DNA of 64,000 nucleotides from Candidatus Zixiibacteriota bacterium (GTDB lineage: Bacteria > Zixibacteria > MSB-5A5 > GN15 > FEB-12), in NCBI GenBank assembly GCA_022571985.1, contig JACZWU010000001.1:219501-283500 (forward strand). The letters run 5' to 3'. The notes under the pieces were generated by a model. It was not told where the DNA came from. It ran no database searches and worked only from the letters and a program-made list of their open reading frames with translations. The translations under genes and the position numbers were made by a program. Of the stretch, positions 41,154-48,451 are shown piece by piece. The first letter of the stretch is position 1; the number at the start of each line of letters is the position of its first letter.

Positions 41154-42035
41154 TTAAGAACCGATATTTTCAGCGGCGGTGACGGTATTGGACAGCAGCA
41201 TAGCGATAGTCATCGGCCCCACCCCACCCGGAACCGGCGTGATATACGAGGCTTTTTCTTTGACCGCCTCAAAATCGACATCGCCCACCAGCCTGTAGCC
41301 CTTTTCTGTATCAGGGTCGTCAACGCGATTGATGCCGACATCGATAACAACCGCCCCCTCTTTGACCATATCCGCGCTGATGAAATTAGGCCGGCCGATA
41401 GCCGCAATTAGAATATCAGCCCGCTTGCAGACCTCGCTTAAATTACTTGTCCGGGAATGAGCGATAGTAACCGTAGCATTGGCCATCTTCCCTTTTTGCA
41501 TCAAAAGCGCAGCTACCGGCTTTCCCACAATATTTGAGCGGCCGACCACGACTGCCTCTTTCCCCTCGGTGCTGATGTCATAATATTCTAAAAGTTTTAT
41601 GATGCCGTGCGGCGTACAGGGCAGCAGTTTCCCCCGGCCGATAAGCATCTGACCGACATTAAACGGATGAAAGCCATCGACATCTTTTTCAGGGCTGATA
41701 TGAACTGTGATTTCAGGCTCATCTATCTGCTCAGGCAGCGGCGACTGTACTAAAAAGCCGTGAATTTTCGGGTTGGCGTTGAGACTTTCTATTATTTCAA
41801 CAAGCTCCTCTTGCGAGAGCGAAGCCGGCTGTCTGATGACTTCAGAATACATGCCCAGTCTATCGCAGGCTTTGGCTTTAGAATTTACATAAGTCTGCGA
41901 GGCCGGGTTGTCACCTACTAAAACCGCCGCCAGACCCGGAACGATGCCTTTTTCTTTCAAGGCTGCAATGCGGGGTTTCAAGCTAAGCTTGATTGATTTG
42001 GCAACTTCTTTGCCGTCTATAATTTTGGCCGACAT
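41154..42035 (-). CDS. folD: Bifunctional methylenetetrahydrofolate dehydrogenase/cyclohydrolase FolD
   Basis: 293 aa, normal length. Motifs: VGDNPASQTYVNSKAKACDRLGM with the catalytic Lys, GFLVQSPLPEQID, PEKDVDGFHPFNVGQM, PCTPHGIIKLLEYYDI, VVVGRSNIVGKPVAALLM and YITPVPGGVGPMTIAMLL. It converts methylene-THF to methenyl- and formyl-THF, supplying purine and initiator-tRNA formylation. Its ATG shares a base with the ymdB stop (TAATG), so translation is coupled. Confidence 0.98.
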   Translation of the reverse strand: MSAKIIDGKEVAKSIKLSLKPRIAALKEKGIVPGLAAVLVGDNPASQTYVNSKAKACDRLGMYSEVIRQPASLSQEELVEIIESLNANPKIHGFLVQSPLPEQIDEPEITVHISPEKDVDGFHPFNVGQMLIGRGKLLPCTPHGIIKLLEYYDISTEGKEAVVVGRSNIVGKPVAALLMQKGKMANATVTIAHSRTSNLSEVCKRADILIAAIGRPNFISADMVKEGAVVIDVGINRVDDPDTEKGYRLVGDVDFEAVKEKASYITPVPGGVGPMTIAMLLSNTVTAAENIGS

Positions 42036-42976
42036 TACACCCCATCCTCTTGTTCAGGTGTGGGGTGTGTCGCCTCTTCGGTCTTATCATTCCCATTGTC
42101 ACCGCCATTTTTCGGGTCGTCTTCGAGATCCTGCGTTTCTGTTTTGTCTCTTTTGAAAATCGCGTCTCTGCTGGCTTCGGCATCTTCAATATCAAAACTA
42201 TACTGGTAACGTTCGATGCTAATCGCCCTGCCCGTCTCTGTTTCTACTCTGACAATCACGCCGGTAATTTTAACATCATCTTTGGCAGTGGTAAAGCGCT
42301 TGGGCATGCCGGTCACAAAACGACCGAGACTGGGGCCGACTTCCATACCGATCACCGAATCATAAGGACCGGTCATACCGGCGTCACTGATATAAGCGGT
42401 GCCTTTGGAGGTCACCTTTTCGTCGGCGGTCGGTACATGAGTATGAGTGCCGACAAGCGCCGAAACTTTGCCGTTTAGGTGATACATCATAGCCTGTTTT
42501 TCAGAAGTAGCTTCGGCGTGGAAATCGACAAAGATGATTTTCGCCTGCTCACTCATGGCTGTCAGCTGACGGCTGGCTTTCTTGAATGGACAGTCGATGT
42601 TGGCCATATAAGTCCGGCCCATCAGGTTTAAGACACCGATTTTGACGCCATTTACATGATCAACAAACACACCCGAACCGGGCACCCCGTGGGGGTAATT
42701 ATCCGGTCTCAGAAGTCTCGGCTCCTGGGCAATATATTCGAGTATATCTACCCTGTCCCAGATATGGTTGCCCGAAGTTTGCAGGTCGACTCCATAGGTG
42801 AAAATCTTCTGAGACATCTCAGGCGTAATCCCGAAACCGCCGGCAGAGTTTTCGACATTGGCGATAACATAATCGGCGCCGAATTTTTCTTTGATAGGGA
42901 TTGTCAGATGTGCGGTCGCCTGCCTGCCGGCCTTGCCGCAAATGTCAGCAATAAAGAGAATTGTGAATACGGACAT
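42035..42976 (-). CDS. ymdB: YmdB-family metallophosphoesterase (TIGR00282 type)
   Basis: 313 aa. Metal-binding motifs of calcineurin-like phosphoesterases: LFIADICGKAGRQA, VIANVENSAGGFGIT, TSGNHIWDR, FVDFHAEATSEKQA, LVGTHTHVPTADE and YISDAGMTGPYDSVIG. In Bacillus YmdB is a cyclic-nucleotide and RNA-related phosphodiesterase and is encoded after rny. Here rny is 3.8 kb upstream, with an accessory interval between. The C-terminal about 45 residues form an acidic, low-complexity tail absent from most relatives. Confidence 0.93.
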   Translation of the reverse strand: MSVFTILFIADICGKAGRQATAHLTIPIKEKFGADYVIANVENSAGGFGITPEMSQKIFTYGVDLQTSGNHIWDRVDILEYIAQEPRLLRPDNYPHGVPGSGVFVDHVNGVKIGVLNLMGRTYMANIDCPFKKASRQLTAMSEQAKIIFVDFHAEATSEKQAMMYHLNGKVSALVGTHTHVPTADEKVTSKGTAYISDAGMTGPYDSVIGMEVGPSLGRFVTGMPKRFTTAKDDVKITGVIVRVETETGRAISIERYQYSFDIEDAEASRDAIFKRDKTETQDLEDDPKNGGDNGNDKTEEATHPTPEQEDGV

Positions 42977-43001
42977 TACCCGTACTTTCTAAGGCGAATA
43001 T

Positions 43002-43034
43002 TTGTCATTCCCGCGGAGGCGGGAATCCATCTTG
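43002..43034. repeat. GTCATTCCCGC...GGGAATCCATCTTG repeat
   Basis: TTGTCATTCCCGC (43002-43014) and GGGAATCCATCTTG (43021-43034) match the two blocks at 16991-17003 and 17039-17052. It sits immediately upstream of ymdB. Confidence 0.75.
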
Positions 43035-43060
43035 TGGGCGGCAGACGTCTCGTCTGCCCC
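43034..43060. repeat. Hairpin repeat, left end of the accessory interval
   Basis: GTGGGCGGCAGACG-TCT-CGTCTGCCCC forms a stem. The same element with few changes lies at 46606-46633 in the same orientation, at the far end of the accessory genes. Confidence 0.75.
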
Positions 43061-43305
43061 TAATTCGGTGCCTCGCCATACACCAAACCATTAGCTTAAT
43101 ATAACTCAGTGAGGAGTCTAATATATCCCTACTTTCAACGCAATAGAATTGATTGAATCAAGAGTTGGATGTGATCATCGGCGAGGAATCCGCCATGCTG
43201 AAAAGACACGGTCCCCAACGTAGTCGAGGGAAAGGCGAGAATTCATGAAGTATAGAATCTATCTAAAAGTTGCCTCAAATTCTTTTTTACTAAGAAAAGT
43301 CTCTA
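43061..43305. other. Gene-free stretch between repeat and YwgA-like gene
   Basis: No frame with coding character, RNA gene or clear terminator was recognised in these 245 nt. The composition is mixed and looks like decayed sequence. Confidence 0.5.
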
Positions 43306-43830
43306 TTATACTAACTCTTTAGAAATTCGGTTAATTGCGCTTAATGCTTCATCTTTGCTTATGTGAGGTTTAATTTGGTGAATTCTGTCTGCTAATTCAA
43401 CATGAGTACCTTCAAAATTTTTCAAAGCATAAAGAGCTGTTGCATACCTTTCGAGCTCCGAAACATTATCATGATCTCTGAAAAAAGTATCTATCGTCCA
43501 GGCAATATCTCTTTCATACCCCTGAGCATGCGCTGAAACAAGACTTCTGAATGATGACGCATGCTTCCCATTTGAAAAGTGGGAGCCATATGGTGGAGAT
43601 TCTTTCCTCTCGAGAATTCCTGTTGCTTCAAGAAACGTCAGTTCACTTTTCAAATCGAATGAATAGGGACCATATTTATATAAGACAAATGAATAACCGA
43701 GGTCAAGATTGCGCAAAATTGACAGAAAATATATTGCTTTTTGAATATGTGTTTCACCAGTCCAAGAGCCAGCCCGATTCAGTTTTTCAACTAAATCTAG
43801 CAGCAAAACCCGTCTCTCATCGTTATTCAT
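43306..43830 (-). CDS. YwgA-like protein, partner of an HD-domain hydrolase
   Basis: 174 aa. The sequence GETHIQKAIYFLSILRNLDLGYSFVLYKYGPYSFDLKSELTFLEATGILER matches the YwgA / Panacea-like pattern, in which a winged-helix-like domain carries YGPYS. In Bacillus ywgA lies beside the HD-domain gene ywfO; here the start overlaps the HD gene by 8 nt in the same order. Function is unknown; Panacea-type proteins elsewhere serve as antitoxins, so neutralising the HD partner is one option (inference). A+T content is higher than in the flanking housekeeping genes. Confidence 0.75.
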   Translation of the reverse strand: MNNDERRVLLLDLVEKLNRAGSWTGETHIQKAIYFLSILRNLDLGYSFVLYKYGPYSFDLKSELTFLEATGILERKESPPYGSHFSNGKHASSFRSLVSAHAQGYERDIAWTIDTFFRDHDNVSELERYATALYALKNFEGTHVELADRIHQIKPHISKDEALSAINRISKELV

Positions 43831-45196
43831 TATCTTCCTCCAAAAACTCTTTCCCCATTTTAGTAATTATGAATTCCTCAATACAAGTTTTAATATCATT
43901 TTTCTTTTGGCGGTCGGCAATCACAAAGTCTTGGCTTGGACTCACAAGTTCGTCAAGAATCTTACTATAAGTCTTACCAAATTCTATTTTGTCAGGTTCG
44001 ACTCTTCGATTCCATACAGAAAAATCGTCTTTTAATGCAGGAGTTCTTTTACCACCCTGATTCCTACTCAATCGAACAGAGTAGTCAGTTTCGGCAAAAT
44101 CGTTGGCAAGTTTATCCTCAAGCTCAGCTTTAACACTATCTACCGCAAACATGTGAATTTCTTTAGGCCTAAATTCATATGCCAATTGAAAGTGGTTTCT
44201 ATCTTGAATCCTCTTAGCCTCCAAATAACCAACAGCTAAACTATTTTGAGAGGCTTTATAGATTTCGGAAAATATTTCGTTATCTGTAAACTTTATGAAA
44301 TTATCCGGGTCTATTGGCCAGAATCCGCCATTCTGCACATTGAGAAATGCTTTCACAAATCTCTCGCAATGAGTGTTGTACGCAGTTGAAACCCGGTGAA
44401 AATACACTTGCATATACATAAAGTATCTTGCCACCAAAAGGGCTTCTGTAGGATGAATCCCACCATGCTCGATCCCAATCGAAATCTCGCTTCTCTCACC
44501 AATTTTTCTCGGAGGCAGGAGTATTCTCAATGTTTGTATCAAACGATCATGGTCAAATTTTCCCGCGACCGCTCCGCAATGATGAGCATCTCGCAATAAA
44601 TAATCCATACGGTCAACACCGAATGCATCCCCAACAATAATTTCATTCAATAATAGTTGCCAATTTTTGAATGGCTCCGACTGAAAATACTTAGGACCAA
44701 CAGCCAATTTAGCAATCAATGAAGGGTTATAAGGAATATCGCAACCATTTTGCAACATGTCTGTTAATTCGGATTTCATAATAATTCTCTTGGTCATAGT
44801 CTCATGATTTTCACCCACAGGAAATAACGATTCAGTCGCATGTGAAAAGGGAGGGTGACCTACATCATGAAGTAATGCAGCCATCCTTAAATGACATCTC
44901 CAGTTAACCAGAATATTGTCATCTAGTTGTTCCTTGAGCTGCTCCACAGATTTAGAGTGGCGATTTTTGTGGTCAAATAGAACATCGAAAGCACGTCCTG
45001 CCAGTTCCATTGTTCCAATGCTGTGTTCAAATCTCGTGTGTACGGCGCCTGGATAAACGAAGTTTGTCATCGACAGCTGCTTAATATGTCGAAGTCGTTG
45101 AAAATAGCGAGACCCAATAACTTTTTTTTCATCATTGTTGAAGTATACAAACGTATGAATTACATCTCTTATTTCATGTTGTACTTTTTTACTCAT
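43823..45196 (-). CDS. HD-domain phosphohydrolase of the SAMHD1/YwfO type (COG1078-like)
   Basis: 457 aa. Signature motifs: FQRLRHIKQLSMTNFVYPGAVHTRFEHSIG, the metal HD pair in RMAALLHDVGHPPFSHATES, and the distal Asp in GDAFGVDRMDYLLRDAHHCG. These define the SAMHD1-like branch of HD hydrolases, which includes dNTP triphosphohydrolases. Substrate here cannot be told. The coupled YwgA-like gene suggests a two-component unit. No Shine-Dalgarno of note; a gene on the opposite strand starts 120 nt upstream. Its position in an accessory interval admits a nucleotide-depletion defence role (inference). Confidence 0.85.
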   Translation of the reverse strand: MSKKVQHEIRDVIHTFVYFNNDEKKVIGSRYFQRLRHIKQLSMTNFVYPGAVHTRFEHSIGTMELAGRAFDVLFDHKNRHSKSVEQLKEQLDDNILVNWRCHLRMAALLHDVGHPPFSHATESLFPVGENHETMTKRIIMKSELTDMLQNGCDIPYNPSLIAKLAVGPKYFQSEPFKNWQLLLNEIIVGDAFGVDRMDYLLRDAHHCGAVAGKFDHDRLIQTLRILLPPRKIGERSEISIGIEHGGIHPTEALLVARYFMYMQVYFHRVSTAYNTHCERFVKAFLNVQNGGFWPIDPDNFIKFTDNEIFSEIYKASQNSLAVGYLEAKRIQDRNHFQLAYEFRPKEIHMFAVDSVKAELEDKLANDFAETDYSVRLSRNQGGKRTPALKDDFSVWNRRVEPDKIEFGKTYSKILDELVSPSQDFVIADRQKKNDIKTCIEEFIITKMGKEFLEEDNE

Positions 45197-45315
45197 AATT
45201 CTACTTTGGTCGTTCTATTGTATAGTCTCAAAGATAGTTCCCGCGAAAGTCAAATTCCCTACCAAATCACCCCAAAATACTCGTTGGCCCTTGATAAGTA
45301 AAGAGGTCTATTACT

Positions 45316-45987
45316 ATGTCCACGTCAGAGAAACAATTAAACGCCAACCGGCAAAATGCCCAAAAGTCAACCGGTCCCATTACCGAAACCGGCAAAAAGG
45401 CCTCAAGCCAAAATGCCGTCAAGCATGGCCTCCACAGCTGCCAAATCGCCATCAATTCCCCTCGCCTGAAAGAAGACGCCACTGAATACGAAATTCTCGT
45501 GGCATCCTTATTCGATGAACACCAGCCCCGCTCTCCCCTGCAGGAACACTTAGTTTACAAAATCGCCAACTGTATGTGGCGCTACCGCCGCCTCATCTCT
45601 GCCGAAACCGCCGAAATCAACAGACAGCTCCAGCCCCACGACACATTTTTAATCGACAAAGAAAATTACTTCGAGCATTTTGAAAACTCCGGTGAACTCG
45701 AAGACCTGCTCAATTCGAGAACAATCCCAACTGGAGAGACCGCAAATCGTTTCCTCCGCTACGAATGGCGCCTGAATCGTGAACTCCACCACGCTTACAC
45801 CCTATTGCGTTTGCTCAAAATAATGGAAAAAGCCGAAGCGAAATCAGAAAACGCCCTCACCGTCTTATCCCAAACCGAGCCTGTCCTGAGCGAAGCTTTA
45901 GTCCCAAATCTGACTTGTCGGATGGGGGACGAAGGGCCGATCGAATCGGATTCACCACAAAACCACTACAACCACAAGCAAATATGA
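45316..45987 (+). CDS. Protein of the ANRxNAQKSTGP family, unknown function
   Basis: 223 aa. It opens with EKQLNANRQNAQKSTGPITETGKKASSQNAVKHGLHS, a motif (ANRxNAQxSTGPxTxxGK...NAxKHGL) seen in short proteins present in several copies in many uncultured and soil bacteria; the role is not known to me. The middle is helical and rich in Arg, Glu and Leu. The C-terminus reads through an interspersed repeat (GCCTGTCCTGAGCGAAG, about 45880-45896), so the last about 35 residues may be read-through of inserted repeat. It is the only plus-strand gene within 28 kb and uses many C-ending codons, unlike its neighbours. Confidence 0.7.
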   Translation: MSTSEKQLNANRQNAQKSTGPITETGKKASSQNAVKHGLHSCQIAINSPRLKEDATEYEILVASLFDEHQPRSPLQEHLVYKIANCMWRYRRLISAETAEINRQLQPHDTFLIDKENYFEHFENSGELEDLLNSRTIPTGETANRFLRYEWRLNRELHHAYTLLRLLKIMEKAEAKSENALTVLSQTEPVLSEALVPNLTCRMGDEGPIESDSPQNHYNHKQI

Positions 45988-46020
45988 CAAAACGAACCCA
46001 TTCGCGCGAAGCGTCGCCGT

Positions 46021-46050
46021 CCCGCGGGCTTTGGCCCCGCGGGGCATTTT
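46021..46050 (+). terminator. G+C-rich hairpin after the ANRxNAQKSTGP gene
   Basis: CCCGCGGG (46021-46028) pairs with CCCGCGGG within 46035-46044 around CTTTGGC; ATTTT follows. It is a plausible terminator for the plus-strand gene that ends at 45987, or a repeat hairpin. Confidence 0.5.
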
Positions 46051-46101
46051 GCAGAAACGCGACACCCGACAGCACGAAGCCCTGTTTCATTTGTGTTTGT
46101 C

Positions 46102-46551
46102 TTATCGGAAGAGCACCAGCTCTCCGCTTCTATGGATGTTTTTCCAGAATAGAGATAACCTTTTGCTATCTAATTCGTAGGCATATACGTCTTTCAATTT
46201 CAACGCAAAGCCATCCACAATATCCATGAATTTGCATCCCATCATAGTCGTGCTACCTAAACTAATCGTCATCAGGTTCTCTGTTAAGCTCGTAATGGCC
46301 GCAGAGTAAGTGTTACAGTCAGCCCTGGCTGAGATTCTCCCTGAATCATCAATAGTTAAAGTCAATTCTGGAAAATTACGTAATTGAGGGTGAGGAGGTG
46401 AGTTCGCCCAGGTCCAAATACCTGCCAATTTGGAATGATAAGGTGTAAGGTTAATGTTCTCATTACGGATGTTTTGATGGATTTCACTACACGAAATTTG
46501 AATTAGACTAATCCAAACGATAAAGAATGTGAATTGGAGAAAGCGTTTCAT
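46102..46551 (-). CDS. META/HslJ-like domain lipoprotein
   Basis: 149 aa from the ATG at 46551; an upstream start at 46635 would place the signal peptide inside the chain. The N-terminus KRFLQFTFFIVWISLIQISC fits a lipoprotein signal with a weak lipobox. The META fold follows: LAGIWTWANSP, LTLTIDDSGRISARADCNTYSAAI, MTISLGSTTMMGC, LKLKDVYAYELDSKRLSLFW. META/HslJ proteins are envelope proteins linked to stress or novobiocin resistance in E. coli; the role here is open. The gene lies in the accessory interval beside rny. Confidence 0.8.
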   Translation of the reverse strand: MKRFLQFTFFIVWISLIQISCSEIHQNIRNENINLTPYHSKLAGIWTWANSPPHPQLRNFPELTLTIDDSGRISARADCNTYSAAITSLTENLMTISLGSTTMMGCKFMDIVDGFALKLKDVYAYELDSKRLSLFWKNIHRSGELVLFR

Positions 46552-46605
46552 AACAGTTTTACAAACAAAAGATGAATTTCTTCCGGGTTCGCACTTAATA
46601 TTTAC

Positions 46606-46633
46606 GTGGGCAGCAGATGTCCTCGTCTGCCCC
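46606..46633. repeat. Hairpin repeat, right end of the accessory interval
   Basis: GTGGGCAGCAGATG-TC-CTCGTCTGCCCC, same orientation as the copy at 43034-43060, with a few substitutions and one extra base. The HD/YwgA, ANRxNAQKSTGP and META genes lie between the two copies. Confidence 0.75.
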
Positions 46634-46650
46634 AAAGACCCGAGGCAGCT

Positions 46651-46716
46651 CTATCTCGCGTACTCGGTGGCGCGGGTCTCTCTTATAACTGTAACTTTTA
46701 TCTGCCCCGGATACTG
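46651..46716 (-). pseudogene. Truncated second copy of the 3' end of rny
   Basis: The minus strand encodes 21 residues and a TAG that are identical in protein to the end of rny (QYPGQIKV...ATEYAR) but differ in 12 of 21 codons, every one synonymous (CAG/CAA, TAT/TAC, GGG/GGA, GTT/GTC, ACA/ACG, ATA/ATC, AGA/CGC, GAG/GAA, ACC/ACG, AGA/AGG and others). Identity stops at the codon before Gln. It lies 63 nt past the real stop and has no start or body. A recent tandem copy would not look like this; it derives from a diverged rny. Confidence 0.9.
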
Positions 46717-46736
46717 TGCAAGCGTAGCGAAGCCAT

Positions 46737-46761
46737 CCCACGGAGCTTCAGCTCCTGTGGG
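46737..46761. repeat. Hairpin between the two rny 3' ends
   Basis: CCCACGGAGCT / AGCTCCTGTGGG forms an 11-bp stem with one bulged T and a 2-nt loop. It lies between the rny stop and the pseudo-3'-end and may be the working terminator of rny, although no T run follows. Confidence 0.5.
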
Positions 46762-46779
46762 GCATCACCGCCCGGCCCC

Positions 46780-48345
46780 CTACCTCGCATACTCCGTGGC
46801 GCGGGTTTCGCGGATGACCGTGACTTTTATCTGTCCCGGGTATTGCATCTCACCTTCGATTTTTTCGGCAATATCGCTGGCCAGAATTTCTGCAGCCAGA
46901 TCATCAAGCTCGTGATTTTCGACTATCACACGAATTTCGCGGCCGGCCTGAATAGCATAGGCTTTGGCCACGCCTTTGAAACTGTCGGCCAGTTCTTCAA
47001 GCTGTTTCAGCCGCTTGATATAAGCTTCCAGCGGCTCTCGGCGGGCGCCCGGTCTGGAGCCAGAGATAGCATCTGCCGCCTGCACCAGCACCGGATAAGG
47101 AGAAATCATGGGTACATCGTCGTGGTGCGACTCGGCCGCGTTTACTACAAACTCATGCTCTTTATAGCGGCGTAAATACTCGGCGCCAATCTGGGTATGC
47201 GTTCCTTCTGTCTCGCGGTCTATGGCCTTGCCTAAATCGTGAAGCAGTCCGCAGCGTTTGGCCATGACGGCGTCAAGCCCGAGTTCAGCTGCCATCAGTC
47301 CGCAAAGCATCGAGACTTCTTTGGAGTGGGCCAGCACGTTTTGACCATAGGAAGTTCGATAGTGAAGTTTGCCCAGTTGATAGACTATTTCCTCGTGAAG
47401 GCCATGGATAGAGAGTTCGAAACAAGCCTGCTCGCCGGCCTCGCGGACTTTTACTTCCATCTCCTGCTTTGATTTTTCGACGACTTCTTCGATTCTGGTC
47501 GGGTGGATGCGGCCGTCAGAAACAAGTTTTTCCAGAGACATCCGGGCAATCTCGCGACGAACCGGGTCGTAGCCTGACAAAATTACAGCTTCAGGAGTAT
47601 CATCAACAATGACATCGATACCGGTCAGGGTTTCAAACGAACGGATATTGCGTCCTTCGCGGCCGATAATCCGGCCTTTCATTTCTTCGCTGGGCAGGTT
47701 GACTACCGAGACAGTAGTCTCGGCAGTATGGTCGGCAGCGCAGCGGTAGATGGAGCCTAAAATTATTTCCTTGGCTTCTTTTTCAGCATCTTTTTCAGCT
47801 TTTTCTTTTATCTCTTTTATATGCGAAGCAGCCTCCATTTTGGCGGCGCTGACCATATTTTCCATCAGCTGCTTCTTGGCTTCTTCGGGGGTCATCTGAG
47901 CAATTTTTTGCAAACGTTCGTTCTGCTGCGAGATAATTTTCTCCAGCTCTTCTTGCCTTATTTCCAGCCCCTTTTCTTTGCCCTGAATGGTAGACTCGCG
48001 GCCGGACATTTCGTTATCTCTTAGATCAAGAAATTCAAGGCGCTTGTTGACATCAGCTTCTTTGTCGCTGCTTCTTTTTTCAGAAGATTCTACTTCGCGT
48101 CTTCTGGTTTCGATCTCTTTTTCGAAATCGAGTTTGACCTTCATCCATTCTTCACGGGCCTCTAAAATCGCTTCTTTCTTTTTGATTTCAGCGTCTTTTT
48201 CCCCCTGCTCTATCAGCCGTTTGGACTGGCTTTCGGCATCATTGAGTTTATGAGAAATACTTTTGAGCGCCAGCATTCTGGCTACAAAAAACGAGGCCAC
48301 CCCGATTATTAAGGCGACAACTATATACAGGACAGGATTTTCCAT
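46780..48345 (-). CDS. rny: Ribonuclease Y
   Basis: 521 aa from the ATG at 48345, fixed by GGAGG 5 nt upstream; a farther in-frame start at 48384 is less likely. N-terminal membrane helix (ENPVLYIVVALIIGVASFFVARML), a long coiled coil (about 35-200), a KH domain (GRIIGREGRNIRSFETLTGIDVIVDDTPEA) and the HD nuclease domain (RCGLLHDLGKAIDRETEGTHTQIGAEYL, ESHHDDVPM). RNase Y starts mRNA decay at the membrane. It follows zapA; ymdB, its usual next neighbour, is displaced by the accessory interval. Confidence 0.98.
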   Translation of the reverse strand: MENPVLYIVVALIIGVASFFVARMLALKSISHKLNDAESQSKRLIEQGEKDAEIKKKEAILEAREEWMKVKLDFEKEIETRRREVESSEKRSSDKEADVNKRLEFLDLRDNEMSGRESTIQGKEKGLEIRQEELEKIISQQNERLQKIAQMTPEEAKKQLMENMVSAAKMEAASHIKEIKEKAEKDAEKEAKEIILGSIYRCAADHTAETTVSVVNLPSEEMKGRIIGREGRNIRSFETLTGIDVIVDDTPEAVILSGYDPVRREIARMSLEKLVSDGRIHPTRIEEVVEKSKQEMEVKVREAGEQACFELSIHGLHEEIVYQLGKLHYRTSYGQNVLAHSKEVSMLCGLMAAELGLDAVMAKRCGLLHDLGKAIDRETEGTHTQIGAEYLRRYKEHEFVVNAAESHHDDVPMISPYPVLVQAADAISGSRPGARREPLEAYIKRLKQLEELADSFKGVAKAYAIQAGREIRVIVENHELDDLAAEILASDIAEKIEGEMQYPGQIKVTVIRETRATEYAR

Positions 48346-48451
48346 TTCAGCCTCCGCTCCGGTCATTCTGACCGAATTCAGCAAGGATGTTTTTATTGAA
48401 ACGGATTAAAAATTAATAAAAGAGTATTCGAGCCAGGCTAAGCAAGAGGAC

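Follow-up and report, generated by a model that had tools for sequence, protein, structure and literature searches.

In Escherichia coli, the prophage e14 lies in icd, and the displaced end of that gene (icd′) is described in the available text of PMC6379469 as being kept as a 163-bp duplicate, while loss of e14 is described in an excerpt of PMC2973815 as bringing ten synonymous and two non-synonymous changes to icd. Many islands are stated to reconstitute the genes which they enter (passage in PMC12884075), restoration of the target gene is called common for islands (PMC12884075, PMC4383910) and SGI1 elements are described as using the 3′ end of trmE (PMC8409611). A similar arrangement was found at the 3′ end of rny, the gene for RNase Y, in a stretch of 64,000 nucleotides of a Candidatus Zixiibacteriota bacterium (assembly GCA_022571985.1, contig JACZWU010000001.1, positions 219,501 to 283,500), the whole of which is referred to as the window. 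Here a 129-bp repeat unit is probably a scar left where DNA entered the rny 3′ end at or near codon 514, the rest of the inserted element having presumably been lost since. The genome holding the window (G000) amounts to 2.93 Mb in 17 contigs, with the window located on a contig of 675 kb. Its nearest named relatives are Candidatus Zixiibacteriota metagenome-assembled genomes (MAGs), namely JACZXB (locus L066, on contig C14 of the sister species G002), JADFPZ (loci L067 and L077, L077 being a congener of G000) and JADFLZ (locus L078, which matches G001). Within the genus, rny loci were readable in G000, G002 and L077. Coordinates are window positions unless prefixed L066 or G000:C1, and the parts of the gene end are as follows:

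46846–48384, minus strand: rny codons 1–513, the native body of a gene with a 534-aa open reading frame (96% amino acid identity to the rny of G002).
46780–46845, minus strand: codons 514–534 and stop of the working rny, a tail probably borne by the insertion, as judged from its divergence from L077 and G002.
46717–46779, minus strand: spacer of 63 nt, unrelated to rny, which would be the sole non-rny remainder of the inserted DNA.
46651–46716, minus strand: putative former rny end (21 codons and stop), displaced and detached from rny, with 60 of 66 nt identical to the L077 tail.

The displaced copy translates as QYPGQIKVTVIRETRATEYAR followed by a stop codon, the same peptide as residues 514–534 of RNase Y, and in the whole G000 genome this peptide was matched at these two places only. 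The two 66-mers differ at 13 of 66 nucleotides (80% identity, E 1.1e-10 in a whole-genome DNA search), with 12 of the 21 sense codons changed, every change being synonymous and the stop codon being the same. Three more weak partial matches from the DNA search (E 0.1–0.7) were taken as chance. The two stop codons are spaced 129 nt apart. A first-pass annotation made from the letters of the window had reported this protein-identical repeat with synonymous-only divergence, and translation and alignment confirmed it; the range which it gave for the second rny end, 46651–46800, is right for the displaced end and also takes in the spacer and part of the working end. The rny 3′ end is therefore present twice, once attached to the gene and once displaced downstream of it, as expected of an element of the e14/icd type. 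The spacer can be folded as a hairpin (z −1.63), which is not clearly better than its shuffles, 10 of 200 of these being as good. No second copy of the spacer was detected in 463.5 kb of G000, the portion of the genome covered by the scans for spacer copies, repeated gene ends and ortholog pairs. An Rfam scan of 42900–46900 gave no match, and a terminator scan of 46500–46900 gave none on the rny strand.

Comparison with L077, where a single rny end was detected, separated the two copies, with the displaced end differing from the L077 tail at 6 of 66 nucleotides and the working end at 16 (50 of 66 identical). By codons, the working tail differs from L077 at 15 of 22, all changes being synonymous, against 54 of 242 upstream (Fisher p 1.8e-5). 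When the displaced end was put in place of the working tail, 6 of 22 codons differed, which matches the upstream background (p 0.60). From G002 the working tail differs at 14 of 22 codons, again all synonymously, with 64 of 242 differing upstream. For all three pairs within the genus, none of the 137 upstream windows of 22 codons reached the divergence of the tail, and an equally close control pair from another genus (L060/L022, among the 30 closest pairs) had an ordinary end (tail 0.227, upstream 0.196, 66 of 137 windows). The last 22 codons were also screened in 187 ortholog pairs between the 463.5 kb of G000 and a 304-kb contig of G002. In the rny pair 14 of 22 end codons had changed without any amino acid change, which was true of no other pair; the pair above it had 17 end codons changed with 10 amino acid changes, and the next two had 11 each with 3 and 5. 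Four of the 187 pairs, rny included, combined at least eight end changes with upstream windows that were all lower.

Trees constructed with the tails placed the displaced end together with L077, with support of 99/89 (38 rows) and 97/82 (36 rows). The fragment did not cluster with the rny of its own genome in the best trees, a grouping which the first-pass annotation had named as one that would speak against an insertion and which a topology test still allows (see below). From the divergence counts and the trees, the displaced fragment is taken as the old rny end and the working end as a probably foreign newcomer, which is the placement of native and incoming ends expected of the e14/icd type.

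G000 and L077 agree in the six codons preceding codon 514 and differ in most codons from 514 onward. The homology of the displaced end to rny also starts at codon 514, and the DNA before it is unrelated. Such a shared boundary of tail divergence and remnant homology would be expected of a single insertion that carried a tail with it. It is suggested that a separate copy of the last 21 rny codons and stop came in with the inserted DNA, and that after insertion at or near codon 514 the native codons 1–513 would have been read into the incoming tail with the RNase Y protein unchanged, the native tail ending up beyond the insert. The remainder of the element would later have been lost, so that 63 nt remain between the new and the old end. 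One event would thereby explain both the tail and the remnant, most of the element would have been deleted, and by analogy with e14 in icd the insertion may have been site-specific and of the integrase type. An insertion which restored the reading frame with its own copy, followed by decay of the element, had already been proposed by the first-pass annotation; it is supported by the grouping of the displaced end with L077 and by a working tail that is out of line. Plain gene replacement, given there as the alternative, fits less well because replacement would be expected to remove the old end.

A number of results weigh against such an insertion, and these are given here and in the next three paragraphs together with the alternatives on which they bear. 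Just 63 nt lie between the two ends, where an element body with an integrase might have been expected. None of the four G000 proteins scanned from the interval between rny and ymdB gave an integrase match, and the nine tyrosine-recombinase matches and one resolvase match of the G000 genome are all on other contigs. The locus is for these reasons described as a scar and not as a proven member of the e14/icd type. No element with an rny tail and without the gene was found among phage records, plasmid records or viral contigs: of the 18 phage records that have an rny tail, 17 match the gene body too, over 88–100% of a 206-aa query (MT839429 is cut by the record end), all 15 such plasmid records match it over 99–100%, and the viral contigs gave no rny-tail match. 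Nor is L077 a pristine empty site, as its rny–ymdB gap is 1865 bp, and in G027 and G017, of two other genera, an opened interval was found with one detected tail each.

The two codon-514 junctions also have no identical overlap (left ATGCA/ATA, right TTGCA/CAGTA), and a conservative crossover at that codon would need one as its core. Two 11-nt runs of identity are found further in, at codons 518–521 and 527–530; a crossover within the first of these would require G000 to have made changes of its own in three of the four codons 514–517. With no common core at codon 514 and with identical runs further in, the crossover can be placed just roughly, probably within codons 514–521. The missing core, and the lack of a recombinase among the interval proteins scanned, would suit an insertion made without an integrase, in which a fragment or circle from a related bacterium, with an rny end and downstream DNA, entered through a short-homology crossover together with an illegitimate join and left the native end in place. 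Family genomes do hold rny tails of a similar kind; none of them is close, and no donor of the working tail was found, the nearest family tail (G019) being 11 of 66 nucleotides away. This course of events is considered rather unlikely, since the remnant starts at the very codon where the working tail turns foreign, a coincidence not expected if the second join were random, and since the sister species G002 also has a second end.

That second end in G002, which counts in favour of an insertion, is 49 nt in length (L066:11863–11911), lies about 258 nt past the rny stop and was detected with a profile (E 1.1e-9); an extra base breaks its frame. With this base omitted, it differs at 7 of 48 positions from the tail of G002 itself, at 9 of 48 from the G000 working tail, at 11 of 48 from L077 and at 12 of 48 from the G000 displaced end. 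The working tail of G002 differs from L077 at 10 of 22 codons (p 0.012), a weaker swap than that of G000, and two visits with loss of the native end may be one reading of this locus, less well supported than the G000 case. An approximately unbiased (AU) test on the 66 columns did not reject the displaced and working ends of G000 as sisters (p 0.405 and 0.38), 66 columns holding little signal, and site counts were 11 for displaced end with L077, 4 for displaced end with own rny and 1 for L077 with own rny. The AU result, and the presence of a second end shortly after rny in G000 as well as in G002, would also agree with an old tandem duplication of rny (or of its end) in the genus, in which the second copy decayed to a tail and the working tail was later overwritten by foreign gene conversion. 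Such a history is improbable: it needs two events with an identical boundary, one end only was found in L077, and the second end of G002, as the counts above show, is nearer to its own tail than to the G000 remnant and not of the same type.

Finally, the named relatives of G000 are MAGs, and the JADFPZ MAG contains two rny versions (L067 and L077) which are just 93% identical over a 459-nt overlap, indicating that it mixes strains or species. An assembly artefact, in which the rny end would be a junction between contigs from two strains, could be suspected from metagenome-assembled relatives of this sort. It is nevertheless regarded as highly improbable, given that the contig of G000 is 675 kb long, that a separate assembly, that of G002, has its own frameshifted second end, and that the displaced and working copies have no identical run longer than 11 nt, hence no long shared word to cause a misjoin.

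The tail was also searched for in 132 genomes of the phylum, 118 of which matched at E 0.01, with G000 alone giving two matches. At E 0.1 a weak second match was added for one family genome, G035 (63% over 19 residues, E 0.06). The occurrence of both copies in relatives had been named in the first-pass annotation as a check on the insertion, and none of the other genomes gave both at E 0.01; decayed ends are invisible to this search and may have been missed elsewhere, as the frameshifted end of G002 was not reported by it. G001 is without the 3′ half of rny and without ymdB.

The region downstream of the displaced end, up to ymdB, contains the following features:

42977–46779, no strand: expanded rny–ymdB interval of 3803 bp, as seen from its coordinates against the family gaps.
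46102–46635, minus strand: META-domain protein (PF03724, E 8.8e-10), with only a 32-nt DNA match in the G002 and L077 loci.
45316–45987, plus strand: 223-aa protein without Pfam match, with a relative of 73% DNA identity in G002 at the same place and in the same orientation.
43823–45196, minus strand: HD-domain, dGTPase-like protein (PF01966, PF19276; PADLOC dGTPase, E 2.8e-8), with no DNA match in the G002 and L077 loci.
43306–43830, minus strand: 174-aa protein resembling part of DarG (PADLOC DarG, E 8.2e-10; no Pfam match), with no DNA match in the G002 and L077 loci.
42035–42976, minus strand: ymdB (PF13277, E 3.5e-98), the usual next gene after rny in the family.

The genes for the dGTPase-like and DarG-like proteins overlap (43306–45196) and could represent a defence or toxin-antitoxin pair. 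In a survey of the 46 family genomes with an rny tail, rny and ymdB were on one contig in 41. The gap between them was 54–236 bp in 37 of the 41, all belonging to other genera, and large in G000 (3803 bp), G027 (4333 bp), G002 (5116 bp) and G017 (6650 bp). Among the genus members read (G000, G002 and L077), none with a short gap was seen, and the large gaps of G000 and G002 against the short family ones count in favour of an insertion. The two genes were on different contigs in G019, G033, G075, G005 and G015, with one tail each in the stretches of G019, G033 and G075. The interval proteins of G027 and G017 (three and five, respectively) gave no recombinase match when scanned, and with one tail in each of these genomes a tail swap is not to be concluded just from an interval that has opened.

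Besides the gene for the 223-aa relative, the G002 interval has one caspase-domain, one ThsB-type TIR and one beta-propeller gene, and the L077 interval has a gene that is 93% alike in DNA to the propeller region of G002. The caspase-domain gene adjoins the TIR gene (L066:12799–14138) in what looks, from domain matches only, like type IV Thoeris, and the two are plausible candidates for island cargo. It is possible, if doubtful, that in this Zixibacteria genus a family of unseen elements has the rny 3′ end as its standing attachment site, the elements landing one upon another. Under that proposal the elements would carry protein-identical, synonymously diverged rny tails and sometimes defence cargo, and stacked old ends would record successive visits, one in G000 and perhaps two in G002.

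A G-rich repeat (GGGGATTTGGTGGGG) was located at L066:12711–12740, L066:14685–14714 and 45251–45280 of the window. These sites lie beside genes of the 223-aa family and, in G002, also past the caspase-TIR pair, and the repeat may mark a cassette border. The 223-aa family itself was present in 23 of 54 family genomes, with up to four copies, the G002 member (L066:12109–12675) containing the motif NRQNAQKSTGP...NAITHGL. When 29 loci of this family were scanned for repeated ends, with the family considered as a possible mover, five gave repeats and none of these was recognised as a displaced conserved gene end. The scan needs an unbroken frame and missed the known decayed end of G002 within L125, one of the five, for which reason this role is unsupported and not excluded.

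Repeated gene ends as a genome-wide habit were also considered and rejected. A same-strand scan of the 463.5 kb gave the rny pair a score of 72 and twelve other pairs scores of at least 54, with a 50-kb-shift control giving 25–30 and one pair at 81. Judging from their motifs and spacing, the other twelve pairs are probably tandem paralogs or recent repeats. It should also be noted that two open-frame ends at G000:C1:204986 and 205223, 237 nt apart, have the same last 20 residues and are probably a recent tandem repeat.

A literature search, with most subscription journals outside its coverage, turned up no paper in which rny is given as an attachment site and nothing on gene-restoring islands in this phylum. 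Three candidate papers were set aside, since the available text of PMC9703825 and PMC8950961 concerns other ribonucleases, and that of PMC9694928 concerns Sa3int phages, which use hlb. The G002 interval, which lies outside the window, resembles type IV Thoeris in having a TIR gene beside a caspase-domain gene, again as domain matches only; in that system the TIR product is described as activating a caspase-like protease (passage in PMC12847820). With respect to gene-restoring islands, known at tRNA and tmRNA genes and also at protein genes, the rny case has no island body or integrase, and its endpoints are drawn from sequence divergence alone. The closest likeness is to e14 in icd, with which it has in common a housekeeping protein gene that was entered at its 3′ end, a gene end supplied by the incoming DNA, a displaced end that is kept, and differences that are mostly synonymous. 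It differs in its target (rny), in a tail of 66 nt, in having synonymous changes only, in having no element or integrase left and in its uncultured Zixibacterium host. The kind of event is thus known, and the site and the host look new. With this case the gene for RNase Y, central to RNA decay, joins the likely targets of elements which rewrite gene ends without changing the protein. The case also suggests a way in which vanished elements may be found, namely that a sharp rise in synonymous divergence at a gene end, together with a displaced old end, would point to an insertion whose body has been lost.
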